The notes beneath the pieces are model-generated. The model had not been told where the DNA came from, searched no databases, and was given only the letters and a program-made list of their open reading frames with translations. From assembly GCA_011390205.1 (NCBI GenBank), contig JAABSX010000047.1, forward strand, positions 1 through 32,541: a stretch of 32,541 nucleotides of DNA. Direction: 5' to 3'. Source of the DNA: Microscillaceae bacterium (lineage in GTDB: Bacteria; Bacteroidota; Bacteroidia; Cytophagales; Microscillaceae). Positions 9,360-30,466 of the stretch are shown here, piece after piece (the first letter of the stretch is position 1; each line of letters begins with the position of its first letter). The position numbers and the translations under genes are program-made.

Positions 9360-10319
9360 ATGTTGATACCCAAAATGAATCTTACTTACTACACCTGCCT
9401 TGTTTTTGTGCTTCTAACCCTATTGCCCAATCACAACTACGCACAAGAAAAAGGAAAAAAACAAAAACTCGCCAAAGATGTGGGTTATAGCCGAGTCCAA
9501 GATTATGATTTGTCTTTCTTGGCATCTTCTAGTGATGTGCTTGACCTTGATTTTGATATTCCAGTAGATGGGCAATACTACCTCTTCGTGATTGCTGTAG
9601 ATAAATATAAATTTTGGAAGCCCCTCCAGAATGCCGTCAAAGATGCCAGAGATGTAGAAAAAGTGCTAATGGAAAAATACGGGTTCAAACGTGAAAACCT
9701 TTACGAATTATTCAATGAAGAAGCCACTCCCGAAAATATCAAAGCACAGTTTGAAGTATTACAAGAAAAAGGGACTAACCTTGATAATCTACTCATCTAT
9801 TACTCAGGGCATGGCTTCTATGACCCGTCTTTTGACTTAGGCTATTGGGTGCCTTCACTGGGTAAAACCAACAGTGGTGCTACCGAAACCTACATCCCGA
9901 ATGACAATATCAGGGATTATATCAGAGGGCTTAAATTTAGGCATGTCTTCTTGATAGCAGATGCTTGCTTCTCAGGCTCGCTATTCGCCAATGATGCCCG
10001 AGGCTTCAAAGAAGATGAATCTCTCAAATCACGCTGGGGGCTTAGCTCAGGCAATATAGAAGTGGTCTCTGATGGTAAAAAAGGTGAAAATAGTCCTTTT
10101 GCAACTTACTTGCTTAAATTCTTGCGTGAAAATCTGCAAGACCGCATCCGAGTAGAGACCTTGATAGAGTACATCGTCAAAAATGTTTCAGAAAATACAC
10201 AGCAAGAGCCGCAAGGGGGCTACCTGAGCGGCGTAGGCAGTGAAGGAGGTCAGTTTGTATTCTTAAACCAAGGGCAGAAAGAAGAAAGCGATACAGACAA
10301 AGTGAAAAAGAAAGATTAA
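9360..10319 (+). CDS. Exported caspase-like cysteine peptidase (C14/metacaspase fold)
   Basis: 319 residues. A signal peptide covers about 1-29 (LVFVLLTLLPNHNYAQ); the start could be Met1 or Met6. The caspase p20-like domain (about 72-305) opens with YYLFVIAVDKYKFWKPLQNA, contains DARDVEKVL, then the catalytic His151 in YYSGHGFYD and Cys203 in LIADACFSGSLF, both in canonical context. The C-terminus is short and charged (DKVKKKD), with no WD40 or TPR fusion. Bacterial caspase-like proteins usually cleave after basic or acidic residues and many are cytoplasmic regulators; an exported one suggests processing of envelope or secreted proteins. It lies between an exported partner and a large T9SS protein with 33-35 bp gaps, so all three are probably one operon. 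Confidence 0.9.
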   Translation: MLIPKMNLTYYTCLVFVLLTLLPNHNYAQEKGKKQKLAKDVGYSRVQDYDLSFLASSSDVLDLDFDIPVDGQYYLFVIAVDKYKFWKPLQNAVKDARDVEKVLMEKYGFKRENLYELFNEEATPENIKAQFEVLQEKGTNLDNLLIYYSGHGFYDPSFDLGYWVPSLGKTNSGATETYIPNDNIRDYIRGLKFRHVFLIADACFSGSLFANDARGFKEDESLKSRWGLSSGNIEVVSDGKKGENSPFATYLLKFLRENLQDRIRVETLIEYIVKNVSENTQQEPQGGYLSGVGSEGGQFVFLNQGQKEESDTDKVKKKD

Positions 10320-10354: not shown

Positions 10355-13213
10355 ATGAAAAATCATTTAACTTCCTTAAAAACCCATTGTTTGCTACTCC
10401 TATGCTTCGGTATAACCTATATTGCTCAAGCACAAATAGACCTCTCCAACCCTGGAGATAGTTATACACAAAATTTTAATGGCGCAACTGACAGTAATGG
10501 AGATAATAATCCTGACCTTGCCTCTTTAAATTGGACCTTTGAAAATGCCAATAACGATGACCGTAGCTGGACTGTAGTAGGGCTAATCGGCACAGACGGA
10601 GAGAATATCGCAAGAGGCGGAAGCGGACTCTGTGCAGGCTACCCATGGAGTACGCCCAATGCCGCCAATGATTGGCTATTCAGCCCTGCACTTACACTAA
10701 AAACAGGCTTTACATATCGATTGAGCTTCTATTATGCAGCACTGAATGCAGGGGCTACAGTCTATCCTGAGAAGCTAGAATTATTCATAGGCAGCAGTAA
10801 TAATGCTACTAGCATGACCTCTTCTTTGCAAAACTTCGGGACTATTAGCAATACTAACTACCAACAGGCCATTGTAGAAATCACCGTAGATACTGATGGA
10901 GATTATTACCTTGGCTGGTATGCCTACAGTGATGCCGACCAGTATTGGCTCAGAATTGATGATGTAGAGATTATCAATGTCCCTGCAAATGATGTAGCAC
11001 CCATCAGTATAAGCCTGCCAAATACAGACCTTACAGACTGTGCCTCTTTTACTGCCACTACAAATATAGAGGTAGAAGTATCTAACCTAGGCACTGACAA
11101 TCAGACTGGTTTTAACTTAAATTATACCGTTACGGGTGCCAATGTAGGCGAAGTAGCCAATGCCTCCACAGCAGTACCCGCACTAAATGCAGGAGAAATT
11201 ACGACTGTCAGTTTTACAGCAGACTTATCCGCAGGAGATACCTACACAATATCTGTGAGTACAGCCCTGGCAGGTGACCAAGTAAGCACGAATGATGACC
11301 TAGAAAGTGATTTCCTAAACCCCTTTGTTGCACTGACTGAAGAAGCAGACAATTATAACCAAGGTTTTGAAGGTATTGAAAATCTTGCAGAAGCAGGCTG
11401 GACTTCAGAGAATGTCAATGGAGATACTCAAACTTGGGTCATATTTACCAATGCAACTTTCTCGAATAGCGGGAGCAATTTTGCTGTATGCTTTAAAAAT
11501 AACACCAATGCTGGAAATGACTGGCTCTTCAGTAATTGCTTAGATTTGGTGGCTGGGCAGACCTATAGAGTGTCTTTTTTCAGACGTGCCAACGGAGGGA
11601 CTAGCGAAAACTTAAGCCTTCACCTAGGGACAAACCCCGCCTCAACAGGCATGAACACAGAAATAGGCTCTTACCAAGGATTTACAGAAAACTCTTACGA
11701 ACTTATTAAAGAAGAATTTACAGTAGATAGTGATGGCACATACTATCTTGGATGGCACATGACAAGCCCCACAGCTACCGAAGATGGTACTAGTGGTGTA
11801 TTATTAGATGACATTCGAGTCATTGCTGTACCTGCTGCAGATATTGCTATCACAGAAGTATTGATAGATGCTGACCTATCAGATTGCAGTAATTTTACAG
11901 CAATTACACCCATAGAAGTTACTATAAGCAATGAGGGCTCTGCTACACAAACTAACTTTAACATTACTTACCAAGTAGAAGGCACTGCTGTAGGAGCAGT
12001 GAGAAATGGTACTGAAATGATTGCTACTCTAGCCCCAGGAGAAGAATATACATTTACTTTTAATGCAAACTTAAGTGCACCTGATACTTATAGCATTACA
12101 GTTACGAATACCCTTGATGATGCCATAGAAGAAAATGATGAAATCTCAGGTGAGGTAATCAATCCTTTGGCAGAATTAGCAGGTACATCTGCAAGTTATA
12201 GCCAAAATTTTGATGGAGATGTTATCTCAGGATGGAGTATTGATAATACCAATGGCGCTGGGATTGGCTGGACACTGGGAGCGAATACGGCACTCGCCAA
12301 TAGTGGTGAAAATTACTTCTTCTGCCTTACCAACGAAACTGAAGCCAATGATAACTGGCTCTTTAGTAATTGTGTAGATTTGGCTGCCAATACGGTTTAT
12401 AATCTGACTTTCTCTTACCGTACCAATGACCTCAATGAATTTTTGAGAATCTCACTCGGCACTGCTGCTGGCGCTGAATCTATGACCAGACAACTATTCA
12501 CAAGCAATACACTCCTTAGTGAAGGAGACTACACCACAGTTACAGTAGCGTTTGCTGTCGAAAATGCAGGTGTGTATCACTTAGGTTTTCATAATGTAAG
12601 CCCTGCAACTACTGAAAGTGGTTCACTTCGCATAGATGATGTAAGCATCAGCAATACTGATGAAAGTGTGCAAGCTCCTAGTGCACCAAGTAGTCTAAGC
12701 TTAAATAACCCAAACCCACTGGAATCTACCATCGGCTTAAGCTGGAACGCAGGCACGAATGCTGTAAGCTATGTGATAGAAAGAGCAGCAGGTACAGGTA
12801 GCTTTGAGGTGCTTGCAAGCAATGTAACTGGAACTAATTATACTGATGAGAGTGTAAACTTTGACATCAATTACGCATACAGAGTAAAATCTGTGAATCC
12901 ACTTAGCGAATCTGATTACTCTAACGTGGCAAGCCTACAGATTACAGCCATTGAAGATAATAGCATCACTCGGCAGATTCAAGTATTCCCTAACCCTAGT
13001 ACCGATAAGGTATATCTCGACTTCTCAAATGCTAATTTTGAGATCATAGGCATAGAAATGATGGGGGCAGGCGGCTCAAGTGCAAAAGTCTGGAATGGCA
13101 GCAATGATACAGGCATCTATGAAATAGAACTGAGCGACAAACCCGCAGGACTTTACTTTGTCAAAATACAAACGAGCAAGGGGGTAGCTGTCAAGAAAAT
13201 CATCAAACAATAA
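10355..13213 (+). CDS. Large secreted T9SS cargo protein with three MAM-like (choice-of-anchor J) domains
   Basis: 952 residues. Signal peptide about 1-27 (LLLLCFGITYIAQAQ). Three homologous jelly-roll domains of the cleaved-adhesin/choice-of-anchor J type lie at about 35-208, 332-492 and 613-767. Each has a Y-QNF/Y-QGF opening, an NDWLFS/NNWLFS strand, a YYLGW/YHLGF strand and a terminal LRIDDV/LLDDIRV. CARDB-like beta domains follow the first two (about 213-323 and 496-604, each with L-DC-F and AG/APGE motifs). A fibronectin type III domain is at about 774-864. The last about 78 residues are a type A T9SS sorting domain (VFPNPSTDKVYLDF, then AGLYFVKI and a KKIIKQ end), so the protein should cross the outer membrane by T9SS and be released or surface-anchored. 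No catalytic motif is seen; adhesion or carbohydrate binding is inferred. Confidence 0.92.
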   Translation: MKNHLTSLKTHCLLLLCFGITYIAQAQIDLSNPGDSYTQNFNGATDSNGDNNPDLASLNWTFENANNDDRSWTVVGLIGTDGENIARGGSGLCAGYPWSTPNAANDWLFSPALTLKTGFTYRLSFYYAALNAGATVYPEKLELFIGSSNNATSMTSSLQNFGTISNTNYQQAIVEITVDTDGDYYLGWYAYSDADQYWLRIDDVEIINVPANDVAPISISLPNTDLTDCASFTATTNIEVEVSNLGTDNQTGFNLNYTVTGANVGEVANASTAVPALNAGEITTVSFTADLSAGDTYTISVSTALAGDQVSTNDDLESDFLNPFVALTEEADNYNQGFEGIENLAEAGWTSENVNGDTQTWVIFTNATFSNSGSNFAVCFKNNTNAGNDWLFSNCLDLVAGQTYRVSFFRRANGGTSENLSLHLGTNPASTGMNTEIGSYQGFTENSYELIKEEFTVDSDGTYYLGWHMTSPTATEDGTSGVLLDDIRVIAVPAADIAITEVLIDADLSDCSNFTAITPIEVTISNEGSATQTNFNITYQVEGTAVGAVRNGTEMIATLAPGEEYTFTFNANLSAPDTYSITVTNTLDDAIEENDEISGEVINPLAELAGTSASYSQNFDGDVISGWSIDNTNGAGIGWTLGANTALANSGENYFFCLTNETEANDNWLFSNCVDLAANTVYNLTFSYRTNDLNEFLRISLGTAAGAESMTRQLFTSNTLLSEGDYTTVTVAFAVENAGVYHLGFHNVSPATTESGSLRIDDVSISNTDESVQAPSAPSSLSLNNPNPLESTIGLSWNAGTNAVSYVIERAAGTGSFEVLASNVTGTNYTDESVNFDINYAYRVKSVNPLSESDYSNVASLQITAIEDNSITRQIQVFPNPSTDKVYLDFSNANFEIIGIEMMGAGGSSAKVWNGSNDTGIYEIELSDKPAGLYFVKIQTSKGVAVKKIIKQ

Positions 13214-15704: not shown

Positions 15705-18700
15705 TTACTCTTCTACACTAAACTTTCCTTCCTCAAACTCAGGATTTAGTTTTGTCTCCTCAAAGCTCATGGTCATTTCCATATTTTGAGCTTTTTGGGT
15801 GATAGACATCGTTTTGGGGAATTTGATTCCGTCTATGGTTTCATATTCTTTGATAATGCTAATGCTTTGCTCATTTTCGTTTTTGAGCATCAAGCCTGTT
15901 TCTGTACTGAACCAGTTGCTAGCTTCTGCACCTTTGCGGAGGTCACTGATGAGTAGCTTGTAAGCAGGCTGTCCATCTATCATTTCTATGCCTTCTAGCG
16001 TAACTTTAAACTTGCTTACATCCGTATAATCTGTTTCAGGAAAAATACTGGTATCTCCCATTTTAAGAGCGTCTTCACCTTCCACTACATTTGAGCCTTG
16101 TTGCGTAACTACTTTTGCTTTTTCTAGCTCAGTATCTACCACCATTTTCATGATTTCTTGCCCCATCATACTTTGTGAAAGGTATAACTTGCTAGAGTTT
16201 ACTTTTGCCATTTCTAGGCTTAGGGTCATTCCCATGGCATCTATGCTGGCAGTGCGGACGATGCCTTTGACGGCACTTATTTTTTCTTTTCCACCGATAG
16301 ACTCAATGTATCTGTCAATGACCTTTGCTGCGGTCATGTCTTTTAAAAGTGCTTCTTTGTCTGTTTTTGATTCGTTGCTTTGTGCACTTTGCTCACTTGC
16401 TTTTGCCTCTTCCAGTGCTTCAGGGTCAGGATTCATTACCAAGGTAATGTGCTCATCCATATCTAAATACTTCTTGGCTATTTTTTTAAGTTCTTTGCCT
16501 GTGAGCTTATCTATGCGGGCAAGCTGTGCCTCCTTGGTAAGTTTGCTTACATCCCCATTATTTTCGTAGTAGGCAGTTCTGAGTGAGTTAAGCCAAAATC
16601 TGTTTTCTTGTTCGTTTTTCTCTACATCTTTGCGTTGTGCTTCTTTGATTTTGTCAAGGTCTTCTTGTGTAGGGCCTTTTTTCTGCACCTTTTCTATTTC
16701 TTCATAGACTGCTGCCATCAGCTCTGCTACATTTTCGGGGGCACAAGTAAAGCTCACACTCAATCCGTAGGCTTTGTATGGATAGACAGATGTATTGGCA
16801 GAGGCACGTGTACCATAGACACCTCCTTTTTCTTCACGAAGATTTTCTATCAGCTTGATGGTCAGCACTTCGGCAAGAGAACGCATGAGGTATCTTTCTT
16901 CATTCTTTTTGTATTCGCCATTAAAAGAAATCATTACTTGGCTTTTGGGGTCTTTGCCTTGTTCAAATTTCTCACTTACCATACCCTCAGGTGTGCGGAT
17001 ACCCAAATCTTTGAAGCTTTCGTTGCGATTGATAGAAGGCAAGCTGCCGAGGTAAGTTTCTAGCCAAGGTTTGATTTTATCTACTTCAAAATTACCAATC
17101 ATCACAAAAGTAAAATCGCTTGCATCTGCAAATCGCTCTTGGTAGATTTTGAATGCACGGTCAAGGTCAATCTTGTCATAATCTTCGGGTGTAGGGATGC
17201 CACCTGCACGAGGGTGGTTTTGAGTCATTACTTTAATCTGCTTGTCTAAGAAAGCAAATTGAGGGTTTTTCATGACATTTGCTAAGAAAGTTTTTTGCTT
17301 TGTTACGTAAGACTCAAAGGCTGTTTTATCCATTCTGGGGGCTGTAAAGTATAAGTTTACAAGCTGCAGCATGGTTTCTAGGTCTTTGGGAGAGGCACTT
17401 CCGTTAAATCCTTCATTGGTATCACCGATAAAAGGAGATACATTGACTGTTTTGCCTGTGAGAAGCTTTTGCAAGTCAGTAGATGAAAAATCACGGATGC
17501 CACTTTCATTGATAATGCTGCTGGCATTGACAGCAGATTGATAATCAGCATCTGATACTAGAGAGTGCCCTCCAAAACTGAAGGCAGTCATTAAGATTTC
17601 ATCATCTTTAAAATCAGTGGGTTTTAAGACTACTTTTACGCCATTAGACAGTGTAAGCTCTGTAGCTCCTACTGTGCCGAGAGATTTTTCTGTGGTGATG
17701 GTACCTGCTTTGGGCATCTCTGCCATGAGTGGCTCGTCAATGACTTTGTCTTCGTAGGCTTCTACACTCATGGCTTCTACCTCTGTGAGCACTGCCATTA
17801 CATCAGCCTCCGTAGGGATTTTCACGCCTTCTTTGTCGGGAGCAGTGATGATAACCACACGGTTTTCTTGAGTAATCCACTTTTGGGGAAGTTCATTGAT
17901 GTCTTTTGCAGCAATGGTAGGCAATAGTTTTTGCACCATTTCATACTCCCACTCTATGCCAGGCTCTGGGTCATTTTCTAAGAAATTAGCCACAAAGCTA
18001 GATACTAGGCGGTCAGAGCCTGTTTTTTTGCGTTCGTTGTATTGTCTTTCGTATCGGTTGAGGAGGCTTTTCTTGGCACGCTCTAGCTCTGATTCATTGA
18101 AGCCGTGCTGCAGCACTCTTTTGTTTTCGATAAGGGCTGCTTTCAGTCCGCTGATAATGCCTTCTTCGCCTACGCTTGCACTTGTAAAATAAGCGTCTTT
18201 GGTGCGTAAGAATCCTCCATAGCCTGCATAAGCACTCAAGAAAGGAGGTTCAGCTTGTTGGGTAAGTTCATTGTAGCGGTCACTAAGCATGCTAGAATAC
18301 AAACTAGCGGCAAGGCTTTCACGGTAATCTCCCACTGTTTTCATTTCTTTGTGTGGGTGCTTGTAATACACTTGCACTTGCGTAAAAGGAGATTCCTTAT
18401 CAGTAGCGATGCTAATGATGGTTTCTTTGTGGTCAGGGATTTCGTATAGTTTTTTGGGGCGAGGGTTTGCTTGAGGTTTTAGGTTTCCGAAGTGGGCTTT
18501 TATTTTTTGCTCCATTTCGTTTACATCTATATCTCCTACCACCACTACAGCCATGAGGTCGGGTCTGTACCAATCTTTGTAAAACTTTTTGATGGTTTCG
18601 TACTCAAAAGTTTCTAGAATTTCTTTTTTACCGATGGGCAGGCGTTCGGCATACCTTGATCCTTTGAGTAATTTGGGGAAGTATTGGTCTCTCATTCTTT

Positions 18701-19235
18701 GGCCAGCACCTCTTCCTGTACGCCATTCTTCTATCACTACACCACGCTCCTTGTCTATTTCTTCATTGTCAAAAGTAGCAAGATGAGCCCAATCTTCTAA
18801 TATTTGGAAGCCTTTTTCTAGGATTTCAGGATTATCAGAGGGGATAGGCAACATATACACTGTTTCGTCAAAACTTGTGTAGGCGTTTAGGTCTGCTCCA
18901 AACTTCACTCCTACCGACTGTAAGTAACTCACAAGGTCGTTTTTGGCAAAATTTTTCGTGCCATTAAAAAGCATGTGCTCTGTAAAGTGTGCAAGTCCAA
19001 GCTGATTTTCATCTTCTTGCATTGCTCCTGCATTGATGGCAAGCCGCAGCTCTACCCTCTTCTCGGGCTTAGCATTTTGGCGGATGTAATAAGTGAGCCC
19101 GTTTTCTAGCTTACCTACTTTTACTTGATTGTCTAGGGGAATGTCTTGTGTAAGGTCTATTTTTTGTGCTATTAAACCTGAGCTAATCAGCAGTCCGAAG
19201 ATTAGACACAGAAATGTCTTACTATTTTTATACAT
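15705..19235 (-). CDS. Exported M16-family zinc metalloprotease with extra C-terminal LolA-like domain
   Basis: 1176 residues, about 200 longer than usual PqqL-type M16 proteases. Signal peptide about 1-24 (CLIFGLLISSGLIAQ). The inverted zinc motif H83-F-T-E86-H87 (GLAHFTEHMLFNGT) is intact, and the third ligand is in ERGVVIEEWR (Glu169 or Glu170). Two M16 halves span about 35-500 and 520-945; the second half lacks HxxEH, as usual. A linker rich in S/E/K (about 946-967) joins a 209-residue tail starting TAAKVIDRYIESIGGKEKIS, whose pattern (IGG near the start, beta-rich, GLMLKNENE, TIDGIKFPKTM) resembles LolA-like or DUF4292-like lipoprotein-sorting beta domains of Bacteroidota. The role is likely periplasmic peptide degradation. 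The extension is unusual. Confidence 0.92.
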   Translation of the reverse strand: MYKNSKTFLCLIFGLLISSGLIAQKIDLTQDIPLDNQVKVGKLENGLTYYIRQNAKPEKRVELRLAINAGAMQEDENQLGLAHFTEHMLFNGTKNFAKNDLVSYLQSVGVKFGADLNAYTSFDETVYMLPIPSDNPEILEKGFQILEDWAHLATFDNEEIDKERGVVIEEWRTGRGAGQRMRDQYFPKLLKGSRYAERLPIGKKEILETFEYETIKKFYKDWYRPDLMAVVVVGDIDVNEMEQKIKAHFGNLKPQANPRPKKLYEIPDHKETIISIATDKESPFTQVQVYYKHPHKEMKTVGDYRESLAASLYSSMLSDRYNELTQQAEPPFLSAYAGYGGFLRTKDAYFTSASVGEEGIISGLKAALIENKRVLQHGFNESELERAKKSLLNRYERQYNERKKTGSDRLVSSFVANFLENDPEPGIEWEYEMVQKLLPTIAAKDINELPQKWITQENRVVIITAPDKEGVKIPTEADVMAVLTEVEAMSVEAYEDKVIDEPLMAEMPKAGTITTEKSLGTVGATELTLSNGVKVVLKPTDFKDDEILMTAFSFGGHSLVSDADYQSAVNASSIINESGIRDFSSTDLQKLLTGKTVNVSPFIGDTNEGFNGSASPKDLETMLQLVNLYFTAPRMDKTAFESYVTKQKTFLANVMKNPQFAFLDKQIKVMTQNHPRAGGIPTPEDYDKIDLDRAFKIYQERFADASDFTFVMIGNFEVDKIKPWLETYLGSLPSINRNESFKDLGIRTPEGMVSEKFEQGKDPKSQVMISFNGEYKKNEERYLMRSLAEVLTIKLIENLREEKGGVYGTRASANTSVYPYKAYGLSVSFTCAPENVAELMAAVYEEIEKVQKKGPTQEDLDKIKEAQRKDVEKNEQENRFWLNSLRTAYYENNGDVSKLTKEAQLARIDKLTGKELKKIAKKYLDMDEHITLVMNPDPEALEEAKASEQSAQSNESKTDKEALLKDMTAAKVIDRYIESIGGKEKISAVKGIVRTASIDAMGMTLSLEMAKVNSSKLYLSQSMMGQEIMKMVVDTELEKAKVVTQQGSNVVEGEDALKMGDTSIFPETDYTDVSKFKVTLEGIEMIDGQPAYKLLISDLRKGAEASNWFSTETGLMLKNENEQSISIIKEYETIDGIKFPKTMSITQKAQNMEMTMSFEETKLNPEFEEGKFSVEE

Positions 19236-20390: not shown

Positions 20391-20987
20391 TTATTTAGCA
20401 GAGTTTTCTTTGTGATACTCTAGCACTGTTCTTGCCTGTGTTACGAAAGAAATCCCTGTGTTAGAGTCTGTGCTAATCATCACCGCCTCTATGATGGGCT
20501 TGCTCACTTGCCGAATAGACTTCCACTCTACTAAAAAATTAGCTCCTACTCCTCCTTGGTTCTCGGCAGTCTCAATCACGTAGTGCTTGGTAGCAAGCGG
20601 ACTGAGTGAAATCGGTTCTTTTTGTGAAGCTCGGATAAGTTTTCCTTTTGTGTTATAATATTCTACCTTTGTGATATAAATGGTATGATTCAGGTCTATG
20701 TTATGAATACTCAATGTAGCAGACAAGGGGATTGTCCTTTTGTTACTGTAGCTGTATATTTCTGAATAAATAGGGATGTAAATTAGCTGCCCTACACTGA
20801 ATGTATCATTGGGTGCAAGTGCATAATTTTTAATATTTTTATTGTCTTTGCTTGCATCTATCATCGTGATTAAATCCTCTGTATTCTCTGCCCGAGACTG
20901 AGGGCGGCAAGCAAACATCCAACTTGATGATACACACAATAATAGAAAATAACTGCAAGCATCAAACCTAAAAGCGTAATTTATCAT
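20391..20987 (-). CDS. DUF3124-family exported protein
   Basis: 198 residues from the ATG at 20985-20987; a TTG 27 nt earlier gives only a non-conserved extension. A hydrophobic N-terminus (about 12-26, ending SSWMFAC) could be a lipoprotein signal with Cys27, though the lipobox (M-F-A-C) is poor. The mature part carries the blocks typical of DUF3124: LIYIPIYSEIYSYSNKRTIP, SATLSIHNID, ITKVEYYNTKGKLI, EPISLSPLATKHYVIE, GGVGANFLVEW, PIIEAVMIST and GISFVTQAR. The family is widespread, beta-rich and uncharacterised. It is transcribed divergently from the LysM/transglycosylase gene; three TAnnTTTG matches on the minus strand (21080-21087, 21095-21102, 21111-21118) lie in the shared gap, 90 nt or more from its start. 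Confidence 0.85.
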   Translation of the reverse strand: MINYAFRFDACSYFLLLCVSSSWMFACRPQSRAENTEDLITMIDASKDNKNIKNYALAPNDTFSVGQLIYIPIYSEIYSYSNKRTIPLSATLSIHNIDLNHTIYITKVEYYNTKGKLIRASQKEPISLSPLATKHYVIETAENQGGVGANFLVEWKSIRQVSKPIIEAVMISTDSNTGISFVTQARTVLEYHKENSAK

Positions 20988-21125
20988 AATTATATTTTTT
21001 AGAATGAAAAACAAAAAATACTCAGCTTGTTATGAGAAAGATGGTTTATATTTTTTGTATTTTTAAACAACAAGCAATCCAAAAGTACGTTTTTCAAACC
21101 TAAGATATTCCAAAAATAGACAACA

Positions 21126-23246
21126 ATGACATATAAATGCATAAAATTAGGGCTGCTACTCGGATTTATGAGCCTTGCCAGCATACAGCCCACTCTAGGG
21201 CAAGAGAGTCAAGTGCCTAGTAGATTTGACTTTGCAGGGATTCGCCTAAAAATCAAACCAGATGCCCGCCGTGAAATAGAGGCCCGCATCAATGCCATTC
21301 ATAGAGATACCGTACAGTTTCAGAAACAAATCAAAGTGGCTGATTTGTACCTACCCTTGATTGAGGATATTCTTCAAGATGCAGGGCTTCCAGAGGATTT
21401 TAAATACCTCTCACTCATGGACAATACCCAGCCAGACAGTCTTTTGTTTTGGCAAATGGCAAACCAAAGAGCACAGCAACTAGGGCTAAACATCAGTGCT
21501 GAGGTAGATGAAAGATTGAATGTGCTGACTGCCTCAAAAGCAATCGCCAAACACCTCCAAAGCAACCAGCTAGAGCTGCAAAACTGGATTTTTACCTTGC
21601 TCTCTTATCACCTAGAAGTAGGAAAAGTAAAAACCTATCTCCAAGAGATGTTTCCAAAATTAAAACCACTAGAACTCTTAAACCTGAGAGATTTTGAAGT
21701 AGATTTATCATCACATCCTGATATTATTACTTTTTTGTCTTATCATTTTGCCTTTCGTCCTTACCTAAATAAAAATATCTACCCTGAAATAGAACTCATC
21801 AGCTTTGACAATATACAAGGGAAAACCATGACAGACCTTTCAAAACTGTTTAGCCTGCCCGAAAATCAACTTAAAAGTTATAACTCATGGCTCAAAACTG
21901 AATCCATCCCTTTTGATAAAAATTATGAAGCAATTATCCCGATGCCTACAGCCTCCCCCACAGCAGATGTCAGTGTGTCTGTATCAAGAGGTGGAAAAGC
22001 AATCTATGAAACCGAAGAAGAACAAATAAAACACATCGTAAGGTCAGGGGAAACACTCTACCGTATTTCGCTTCTATACAGTGTAAAAGTAGAAGACATC
22101 AAAGCTTGGAATACACTCAATAGCAATGATTTAAGTATAGGACAGGTACTGGTCCTGCAAGATACAAACCCAAAAGAAACACCTATCTACAGCCCACCCG
22201 CTACTACCATTGATACAGCCCCTGCACAAGTCCAAACCATCCACACTGTGGAAAGAGGAGAAACACTCTACAAAATATCCAGAAAATACAAGGTAGATGT
22301 GATAGATTTAAGAAAATGGAATCAATTGTCTAGTGATAATCTACGCATTGGTCAAAAACTCACCATCAATACAAACAAAGAAAATCTACCAGAAAAACCC
22401 AAAGAGATACCCTCTCAGCCCAATCCTGGAAGCCAAGATGTCATTATCCCTGTAAAACCTACGAACCCGAATCAGCCCCGAACCTTAGACTCTAAAAGCA
22501 TCCCTAACCGAATGAATATCGGCAATATATCTCTCATCATCACCAAAGAAGGGCAAAGACTCCTAGAAAAAGACGTAAAATTACTCACCCGAAATGAAAA
22601 ATACTTCTTTGAAAACCTGCAAAGGGTAGATTTGTATGCACCGTTAATAAAAAACACGCTATCAGAAGAGGGCATCCCCATAGACTTACAATATCTCCCC
22701 ATTCAAGAAAGTGAAATGATAGCCAATGCCGTATCTCGCTCACAGGCAGTGGGTTACTGGCAGTTTAAAGCGCCCTCAGCCGTAGAAGTAGGCATGATTG
22801 TAAACGACAACATAGACGAAAGAATGCACATCATAGAAGCCACACAGGGAGCTGCCAAGTACTTTTTGAGAAGCCAAGCCTATTTTAACAACTGGGTTTT
22901 TACCTTGCTTTCTTTTAATATGGGCTTCACAGGGGCTAAAAATCACCTAGAAAGGCAATATCCTCGCCAAAATATCCGAAACATGAAAGAGATAAGCATA
23001 GACGGCAATACGCACTGGTATATTCGTAAATTTTTAGCCCATAAAATTGCTTTTGAAGCTGAAATAGGCATTGACTCTACCCCCTACTATCTTCGCTCAC
23101 AAACTGCAAGTGCTCGCCGTTCGCTAAGAGATATAGCTAAAGAAAAGGGCTGCGAGACCAATACGCTGAGGCTGCACAATCAGTGGCTCAAAAGCACTTT
23201 AATCCCTACGGACAAAACCTATTCTGTCTTGATACCTCTTAAATAA
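21126..23246 (+). CDS. MltD-like LysM/transglycosylase protein with duplicated catalytic unit
   Basis: 706 residues. Signal peptide about 1-25 (LLLGFMSLASIQPTLGQ). The C-terminal unit (about 468-705) is an SLT-type lytic transglycosylase: YLPIQESE with catalytic Glu528, AVGYWQFKAPSAVEVG, and NWVFTLLSFNMGFTGAK in place of the usual AYNxG. The N-terminal unit (about 38-274) has the same plan (ADLYLPLIEDIL, FKYLSLMDNTQ, NWIFTLLSYHLEVGK, NSWLKTESIPFDKNY) but has Asp99 at the Glu528 position and FWQMANQ for GYWQF, so it looks catalytically dead. Two LysM domains (about 302-345 and 371-415, each with GETLYRIS/GETLYKIS) sit between the units. The predicted role is murein binding and cleavage in the periplasm. 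It ends at a strong terminator. Confidence 0.92.
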   Translation: MTYKCIKLGLLLGFMSLASIQPTLGQESQVPSRFDFAGIRLKIKPDARREIEARINAIHRDTVQFQKQIKVADLYLPLIEDILQDAGLPEDFKYLSLMDNTQPDSLLFWQMANQRAQQLGLNISAEVDERLNVLTASKAIAKHLQSNQLELQNWIFTLLSYHLEVGKVKTYLQEMFPKLKPLELLNLRDFEVDLSSHPDIITFLSYHFAFRPYLNKNIYPEIELISFDNIQGKTMTDLSKLFSLPENQLKSYNSWLKTESIPFDKNYEAIIPMPTASPTADVSVSVSRGGKAIYETEEEQIKHIVRSGETLYRISLLYSVKVEDIKAWNTLNSNDLSIGQVLVLQDTNPKETPIYSPPATTIDTAPAQVQTIHTVERGETLYKISRKYKVDVIDLRKWNQLSSDNLRIGQKLTINTNKENLPEKPKEIPSQPNPGSQDVIIPVKPTNPNQPRTLDSKSIPNRMNIGNISLIITKEGQRLLEKDVKLLTRNEKYFFENLQRVDLYAPLIKNTLSEEGIPIDLQYLPIQESEMIANAVSRSQAVGYWQFKAPSAVEVGMIVNDNIDERMHIIEATQGAAKYFLRSQAYFNNWVFTLLSFNMGFTGAKNHLERQYPRQNIRNMKEISIDGNTHWYIRKFLAHKIAFEAEIGIDSTPYYLRSQTASARRSLRDIAKEKGCETNTLRLHNQWLKSTLIPTDKTYSVLIPLK

Positions 23247-23286: not shown

Positions 23287-23321
23287 AAAAAAACCTTCTG
23301 AAATTTCAGAAGGTTTTTTTA
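23287..23321. terminator. Bidirectional terminator between the transglycosylase gene and sdhB
   Basis: A fully self-complementary segment: the left half 23287-23303 (aaaaaaaccttctgaaa) matches the right half 23304-23320. The central accttctga/tcagaaggt stem plus the A- and T-tracts make a terminator for both convergent transcripts. Confidence 0.88.
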
Positions 23322-29785: not shown

Positions 29786-30466
29786 TTAATGTGTGGTATT
29801 TAAAATGTAACCAGGGTCAGGGCAAATCTCAAGATAATATCCCTGCTCGTGCCGTGGTGCTACGCCTATAAAATCTCCTTTGCGCCCGAGCATATCACCC
29901 ATTACCTGAAAATGCAAGTGAGAAGCCCATTGTCCGTTCTCGGTTTCTGTGCCTATTTCAGAAATTTTTTGTCCTTTTTGGATGTGCTGCCCCTCTGTGA
30001 GTGGCAAAAGAGAGCTTCGGGTAAGGTGCCCATAGAGTGTATAAAAAGTGCAGCCCTCTAAAATATGCTCCAAAATAATGGTAGGCCCATAATCCCCAAA
30101 ATTATCATTGTCTTGGAAGCTATGGACTTTTCCCTCCCAAGGAGCAAATACGGGTGTGTGTGCAGGCATCCAGATATCTATACCAAGGTGAATGGACCTT
30201 GCCCCTGCACTCATAGAAAACACATGGCTTTTCTGATATACACTTCGGTCTTCGGCATAGCCTCCGATGCCAGCCTTTGCAGCAGCATCTGAGATTCGCC
30301 CAAAAATATACGCATTCATTTGTGAGATATTGCCTAGGTCAAAATGGGCAAGCTCAGGATTATTCTCCGAAAAATCAAACCAGAAAAGCGTGTCTTGCTG
30401 AAAATCAAGGGGGACTACAGATGCAAATTGCCCTTGGTATTTTTTTAGTAAAGTATTGAGGTTCAA
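29786..30466 (-). CDS. M23 (LytM-like) metallopeptidase-fold protein without signal peptide
   Basis: 226 residues. The LytM zinc site is complete: His93 and Asp97 (SIHLGIDIW), His147 (TLYGHLTR) and His183-x-His185 (ASHLHFQV). Unlike cell-wall M23 endopeptidases it has no signal peptide or membrane anchor, and it starts with a 70-residue region ending IGGYAEDRSVYQKSHVF. This arrangement resembles the M23-like module found fused between kinase and class III aminotransferase domains in some bacterial proteins, more than murein hydrolases; that comparison is from memory. It starts 11 bp after a PLP aminotransferase and 14 bp before a MaoC gene, so a cytoplasmic metabolic role is possible. Confidence 0.85.
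   Translation of the reverse strand: MNLNTLLKKYQGQFASVVPLDFQQDTLFWFDFSENNPELAHFDLGNISQMNAYIFGRISDAAAKAGIGGYAEDRSVYQKSHVFSMSAGARSIHLGIDIWMPAHTPVFAPWEGKVHSFQDNDNFGDYGPTIILEHILEGCTFYTLYGHLTRSSLLPLTEGQHIQKGQKISEIGTETENGQWASHLHFQVMGDMLGRKGDFIGVAPRHEQGYYLEICPDPGYILNTTH

Follow-up and report, generated by a model that had tools for sequence, protein, structure and literature searches.

MltD, known for example from E. coli and P. aeruginosa, is a family-1 lytic transglycosylase of GH23, and the motif scheme of MltD-type enzymes is taken here to be ES, GYWQF, YN, and Y. Among regulators of wall-cutting enzymes, EnvC, NlpD, and ActS are degenerate LytM proteins in addition to DipM, several such regulators carry LysM, and LytM itself has the M23 metallopeptidase fold, which differs from that of SLT. 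In the lysozyme superfamily, alpha-lactalbumin has lost catalysis and works as a regulatory subunit. As for experimental precedents, E. coli MltD E125A and E125K are described as catalytically inactive (PMC10931528), and the dead LytM domain of Caulobacter DipM is reported to interact with lytic transglycosylases and to stimulate SdpA (PMC10336132).

The stretch of DNA analysed here (32,541 nucleotides, hereafter the window) contains a 706-aa ORF that reads, from its N-terminus, degenerate SLT, LysM, LysM, SLT (Table 1). The protein resembles MltD in that both its first (N) unit, by fold and profile, and its second (C) unit, by sequence, match P. aeruginosa MltD, and in carrying LysM; it differs, however, in having two units instead of one, with the N-terminal one degenerate and LysM placed between them. 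With DipM it shares a conserved, catalytically dead wall-hydrolase domain, but here this domain is joined to an enzyme of the same type that looks intact, and the fold is a different one. Alpha-lactalbumin differs in being an animal GH22 protein that forms a separate subunit and has no peptidoglycan role. We assign the C unit to the MltD type; the protein as a whole counts as a new variant in architecture, headed by a pseudo-enzyme. According to our preferred reading, to which we give a probability of roughly 0.5, this is a two-headed MltD-type protein in which the N unit is a retained pseudo-lytic transglycosylase that binds the wall, or serves for docking, without catalysis. By computation, the units are homologous, the N unit keeps the fold but has lost the catalytic motifs, the pairs tested show purifying selection, and most family genomes conserve the layout.

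Table 1. Features of the two-unit gene and its downstream flank (window coordinates)
Feature	Position	Strand	Basis
706-aa ORF: signal-peptide-like start, degenerate MltD unit, LysM pair, intact-looking MltD unit	21126..23246	+	
Signal-peptide-like stretch, residues 1-26	21126..21203	+	by eye, no predictor
First (degenerate) MltD unit, residues 30-273	21213..21944	+	alignment, Pfam, model, structure match
Asp99 in place of the catalytic Glu	21420..21422	+	alignment
FWQ (108-110), remnant of GYWQF	21447..21455	+	alignment, sequence
Probable LysM-like module within first unit, residues 222-274	21789..21947	+	model, structure match
LysM 1, about residues 302-345	22029..22160	+	Pfam LysM; limits approximate
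LysM 2, about residues 371-416	22236..22373	+	Pfam LysM 373-414
Second (intact-looking) MltD unit, residues 458-705	22497..23240	+	Pfam SLT, motifs kept
Glu528 (ES), presumed catalytic residue	22707..22709	+	register with ES of P. aeruginosa MltD
GYWQF of second unit	22752..22766	+	alignment, sequence
Asn598 (motif III)	22917..22919	+	alignment, sequence
Tyr632 (motif IV)	23019..23021	+	invariant in 11 C units, in 0/12 N units
Likely intrinsic terminator: perfect palindrome of 22 bases with a T run after it	23293..23314	+	by eye

An earlier note on this DNA had described two homologous SLT-like units around two LysM domains, and the comparison of the halves agrees: residues 30-273 and 458-705 align end to end with 68/251 identical positions (27%, E=1e-39), and Pfam reports SLT in both halves with two LysM between them. 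Taken alone, the N unit scores 22.3 bits and the C unit 49.1 bits against Pfam SLT (PF01464, cut-off 21.3 bits). The whole protein reaches 117.8 bits against the NCBIfam equivalog NF008050 (murein transglycosylase D), below its cut-off of 508, and departs from the canonical MltD order of a single N-terminal SLT followed by C-terminal LysM; the N unit by itself had no NCBIfam match. The C unit has an SLT domain with the ES, GYWQF, YN, and Y motifs and aligns with P. aeruginosa MltD, ES and WQF being in register. Glu528 and GYWQF, which the second unit had been said to keep, are both there, together with Asn598 and Tyr632. Among Pfam matches up to E=1, no M23/LytM domain was found in the whole protein, and a scan using the single protein alone returned nothing. 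With regard to an outer-membrane lipoprotein signal, residues 1-40 contain no Cys after the hydrophobic stretch, as judged by eye without a predictor and from a start codon that is unproven.

Regarding the fold of the first unit, an AlphaFold model built with eight aligned N units has pLDDT 87.1 and pTM 0.86. Foldseek gives six matches below 0.001, each of them a chain of P. aeruginosa MltD (query TM 0.56-0.59), and VIA-align matches the model to 8rhe, also P. aeruginosa MltD, with Z 15.4 and rmsd 4.5 over 220 residues, the best entry of another protein being MltF (Z 8.9). A profile of nine N units searched against PDB sequences finds P. aeruginosa MltD only (E=2.7e-9), and a literature search for the structure code 8RHE gave no paper. 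Residues 30-273 thus have the SLT/MltD fold, and any fold other than SLT is rejected by the AlphaFold model, Foldseek, and VIA-align. The earlier note had made its account depend on the first unit being an SLT fold, and structure prediction, with the MltD match above, favours it. The final ~50 residues of the N unit are modelled as strand-helix-helix-strand, the same order as in the C unit of the full-length model, and their best LysM match is 4a1i, with a middling Z of 4.5 (rmsd 1.8, 47 residues); judging from these models, they form a probable LysM-like module.

This fold lacks the catalytic Glu, a complete GYWQF, and the Tyr of motif IV. Asp99 stands opposite Glu528 in the alignment, exactly where it had been placed from the sequence, whereas the reported loss of the GYWQF loop holds in part: seven residues are deleted between the Glu and GYWQF, but FWQ persists. 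The damage exceeds the earlier account, the Ser after the Glu and Tyr632 being gone as well. A table of invariant positions, which leaves out N_G178, C_G153, and C_G178, lists 31 positions invariant in 11 C units, and nine of them (R500, E528, S529, S537, A541, G543, Y544, K548, and Y632) occur in 0/12 N units. P518, W545, N685, and W687 are retained in 12/12 N units and E565 in 11/12; W545 corresponds to Trp109, the sole GYWQF residue that first units keep throughout. Asp or Asn occupies the Glu column in 9/12 N units, and the Ser of the ES pair is replaced by Asn in 9/12, so the N units own a distinct pattern at the former ES pair. The equivalent of Asn598 is altered too, but this column also varies among Glu-bearing units, and the change is therefore not diagnostic.

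Still, Asp is an acid, and the window's N unit could for this reason be weakly active; a first unit that remains enzymatic through Asp99 or some other residue would fit Asp in the Glu column of 5/13 N units (G000, which is the window's genome, G129, G153, G116, and G178). We consider such an enzyme very improbable, since the other 8/13 have Asn (5), Gly (2), or His (1, the G102 unit, where the register is unsure) and never Glu, while Ser and Tyr632 are lost in 12/12 and the stretch preceding GYWQF is absent or shortened. With dead motifs in the N unit and an intact-looking C unit, the sequences agree with the proposal of a pseudo-enzyme SLT unit fused, along with LysM, to a presumably active one.

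The dual layout was found in 13/15 genomes searched of one family, probably Microscillaceae (Cytophagales), and in 10/11 of its genera, and no first unit has Glu. It is a single ORF in 11 of the 13 genomes, lies in pieces with apparent frame breaks in G153, and is split over two contigs in G178; it was not found in G141 (86% complete) and G161 (79% complete). In a search of 291 genomes of the order, matches from outside the family, among the matches listed, start at query residue 449 at least, i.e., they do not reach the first unit. A profile search of 395 genomes of the phylum, a sample with no other genome of the window's family and with at most six candidates scored per genome, gave the window ORF as the only one with two units among the matches listed. 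Hence, to say that the layout does not occur outside the family is a statement about the matches listed.

A set of 80 named loci, the best 80 of 175 relatives, was found by two patterns, one of them GYWQ, which favours intact units. Nine of these loci are dual (seven complete, one truncated, and one broken), but they duplicate, gene for gene, nine of the 13 family-genome cases and are not independent. The remaining 71/71 have a single N-terminal unit, with LysM detected downstream in 66; none of these units lacks Glu, and a few of the loci are titled as coming from outside Cytophagales (Chitinophagaceae, Rickettsiales, and Bacteroidia). Thus, among the matches listed and the best 80 of 175 relatives, the architecture, an unusual one, occurs only in the window's family. 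Among the titles and abstract openings listed by literature searches, which covered few subscription papers and no bioRxiv preprints, none concerned an inactive or tandem SLT/MltD unit; this is weak evidence of absence.

Both flanking genes, encoding a DUF3124 protein upstream (20391-21014, minus strand, divergent) and an iron-sulphur subunit downstream, lie on the opposite strand, so the two-unit gene is probably transcribed alone. A conserved operon partner was rejected: one of ten window proteins (AstE/AspA-like) recurred, in one of 12 related loci, several of which are on short contigs. Elsewhere in the window, an M23 (LytM-type) peptidase (29786-30466, minus strand) lies about 6.5 kb from the two-unit gene, with HLGID and HLHFQ motifs that appear intact by eye. 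A caspase-domain (Peptidase_C14) protein (9360-10319, plus strand) has a signal-like start by eye and adjoins a large protein (10355-13213) that has CARDB and a C-terminal sorting domain of a secretion system. The final ~200 residues of a 1176-aa M16 peptidase (15705-19235, minus strand) resemble an extension by eye, and Pfam gave no additional family for this protein.

Selection was measured as dN/dS by the Nei-Gojobori method. In the same-genus pair G088/G031, the values are 0.057 for the N unit, 0.057 for the C unit, and 0.211 for the LysM/linker region, and in the other same-genus pair, G170/G075, they are 0.119, 0.071, and 0.269, respectively. For G178/G116, with a partial N unit, the N value is about 0.20 at dS 1.5 and the C unit is saturated. 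These low values indicate that the N unit is maintained by purifying selection in the pairs tested. A sequencing artefact or a recent pseudogene is rejected, since the reading frame is uninterrupted, 12 further genomes show the layout, and N-unit dN/dS is low. 

The first unit might also be a leftover of evolution or an inert spacer with no specific function, which we judge to be improbable. Mean pairwise identity over the whole SLT part is 0.27 for N units vs 0.48 for C units, and the N unit is strongly eroded in 2/13 genomes (G014 and G102); this erosion, with the faster SLT divergence, implies that its role is not equally needed everywhere. Against a relic stand the low dN/dS in the pairs tested, the presence of a mostly uneroded N unit in 12 further genomes, and the confidently predicted fold of the window's copy. 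Within N units, the motif I/II stretch has a mean pairwise identity of 0.40, the highest among the SLT regions compared, and the LysM-like part has 0.32 vs 0.36 in C units (nine sequences each); all of these identities leave out the N and C rows of G178, G102, G153, and G031, as well as S_G031b.

Degenerate MltD units also exist by themselves. The window's genome has a second one with LysM, a standalone protein of 577 aa (G000 C80:100819-101577, locus L081) with Arg in the Glu column, and also a 510-aa MltD-like protein that is intact but of a different type (GLWQF). Among the matches listed, standalone degenerate MltD with LysM occurs in 13/15 family genomes: seven (G000, G129, G088, G031, G014, G102, and G153) have members of a group termed S, six aligned members of which are 28-37% identical to the G000 copy, and six (G141, G161, G075, G170, G116, and G061) have more divergent proteins. 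For the standalone protein of the G088/G031 pair, dN/dS is about 0.09. The G129 protein (one of the seven in group S) and the G061 C64 standalone have Glu in the column and a changed GYWQF. Altogether, Glu is absent from 27/178 distinct units compared, all 27 from the window's family, with four of these rows being fragments or gapped at the column and some representing one gene twice. Among the family genes fetched, none was seen to encode a standalone protein with an intact GYWQF-type unit.

In a 66-row tree, which leaves out N_G178, N_G102, and N_G014, the N units form one group (99/91) and the C units another (91/72), and a branch with support 96/96 parts C and canonical units from N and S. 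Without the motif columns, in a tree from which ten more rows and 20 of the 36 canonical ones are left out, N and S group with support 97/93. When divergent dead proteins and an outgroup are included and N_G088, N_G116, N_G061, and S_G102b are additionally left out, C and canonical units stay together (96/90) and the dead units are not resolved. The dead unit thus groups with standalone dead paralogues and not with its active partner, which suggests a fusion. Long branches, however, are flagged in every tree, and with these and AU p=0.059 for N placed with C, the N+S grouping is uncertain.

On these sequence comparisons, fusion of a dead paralogue is, with moderate support, the likely origin of the two-unit protein. 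An MltD paralogue would have lost its activity within the family; it would persist on its own, dead but with LysM, and one copy would have been fused ahead of an active unit. The alternative, which bears on origin only and is compatible with every reading of function, is that both units arose by duplication within one gene. Constraining N with C costs 6.8 log units, so this course is disfavoured, and the grouping of N with standalone dead units, with or without motif columns, tells against it as well; the constrained clade is not rejected at 0.05, however, and given the long branches we hold in-gene duplication to be possible, if rather doubtful. Of the duplicated unit described in the earlier note, the homology of the halves therefore stands, while their origin is perhaps a fusion.

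As for function, a dead unit that evolution has kept, in a design common to family relatives, suggests a binding or control job. Substrate positioning or self-regulation, as suggested in the earlier note, may be jobs of this sort. Because the N unit retains its fold and a conserved LysM-like module but shows no active site that can be recognised, it most likely binds peptidoglycan or a partner without cutting. The C unit, as a predicted lytic transglycosylase, would cleave the MurNAc-GlcNAc bond of peptidoglycan via Glu528. The N unit, which retains the MltD fold and probably its built-in LysM-like module, is not expected to cleave; together with the two central LysM it would anchor the enzyme to glycan strands or to a partner, and its docking would thereby set the cutting site of the C unit. 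A non-cutting role in binding and positioning is thus what we infer for the N unit.

The main rival to binding and positioning is a regulatory role by analogy with DipM, in which the dead unit would dock onto its own C unit or other wall hydrolases and switch them, instead of mainly binding glycan. Dead units are retained both fused and standalone with LysM, and DipM offers the reported precedent of a dead LytM domain that interacts with lytic transglycosylases and stimulates SdpA (PMC10336132). The full-length model (pTM 0.62), however, does not settle the relative placement of the two units, and with LytM and SLT being different folds the likeness is one of analogy only; we regard such a switch as a tentative alternative.

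LytM factors, in which dead domains regulate wall-cutting enzymes, have reshaped the view of how bacterial wall cutting is controlled. If a lytic transglycosylase that is dead yet conserved is covalently linked to one that looks alive, the pair would be a self-contained system for testing positioning or restraint, because the dead unit alone can be deleted or transplanted. More speculatively, Microscillaceae may possess a class of pseudo-lytic transglycosylases, fused and standalone, that controls cleavage by docking hydrolases or holding glycan strands. Such a class, if true, would be the lytic-transglycosylase counterpart of the degenerate LytM activators.
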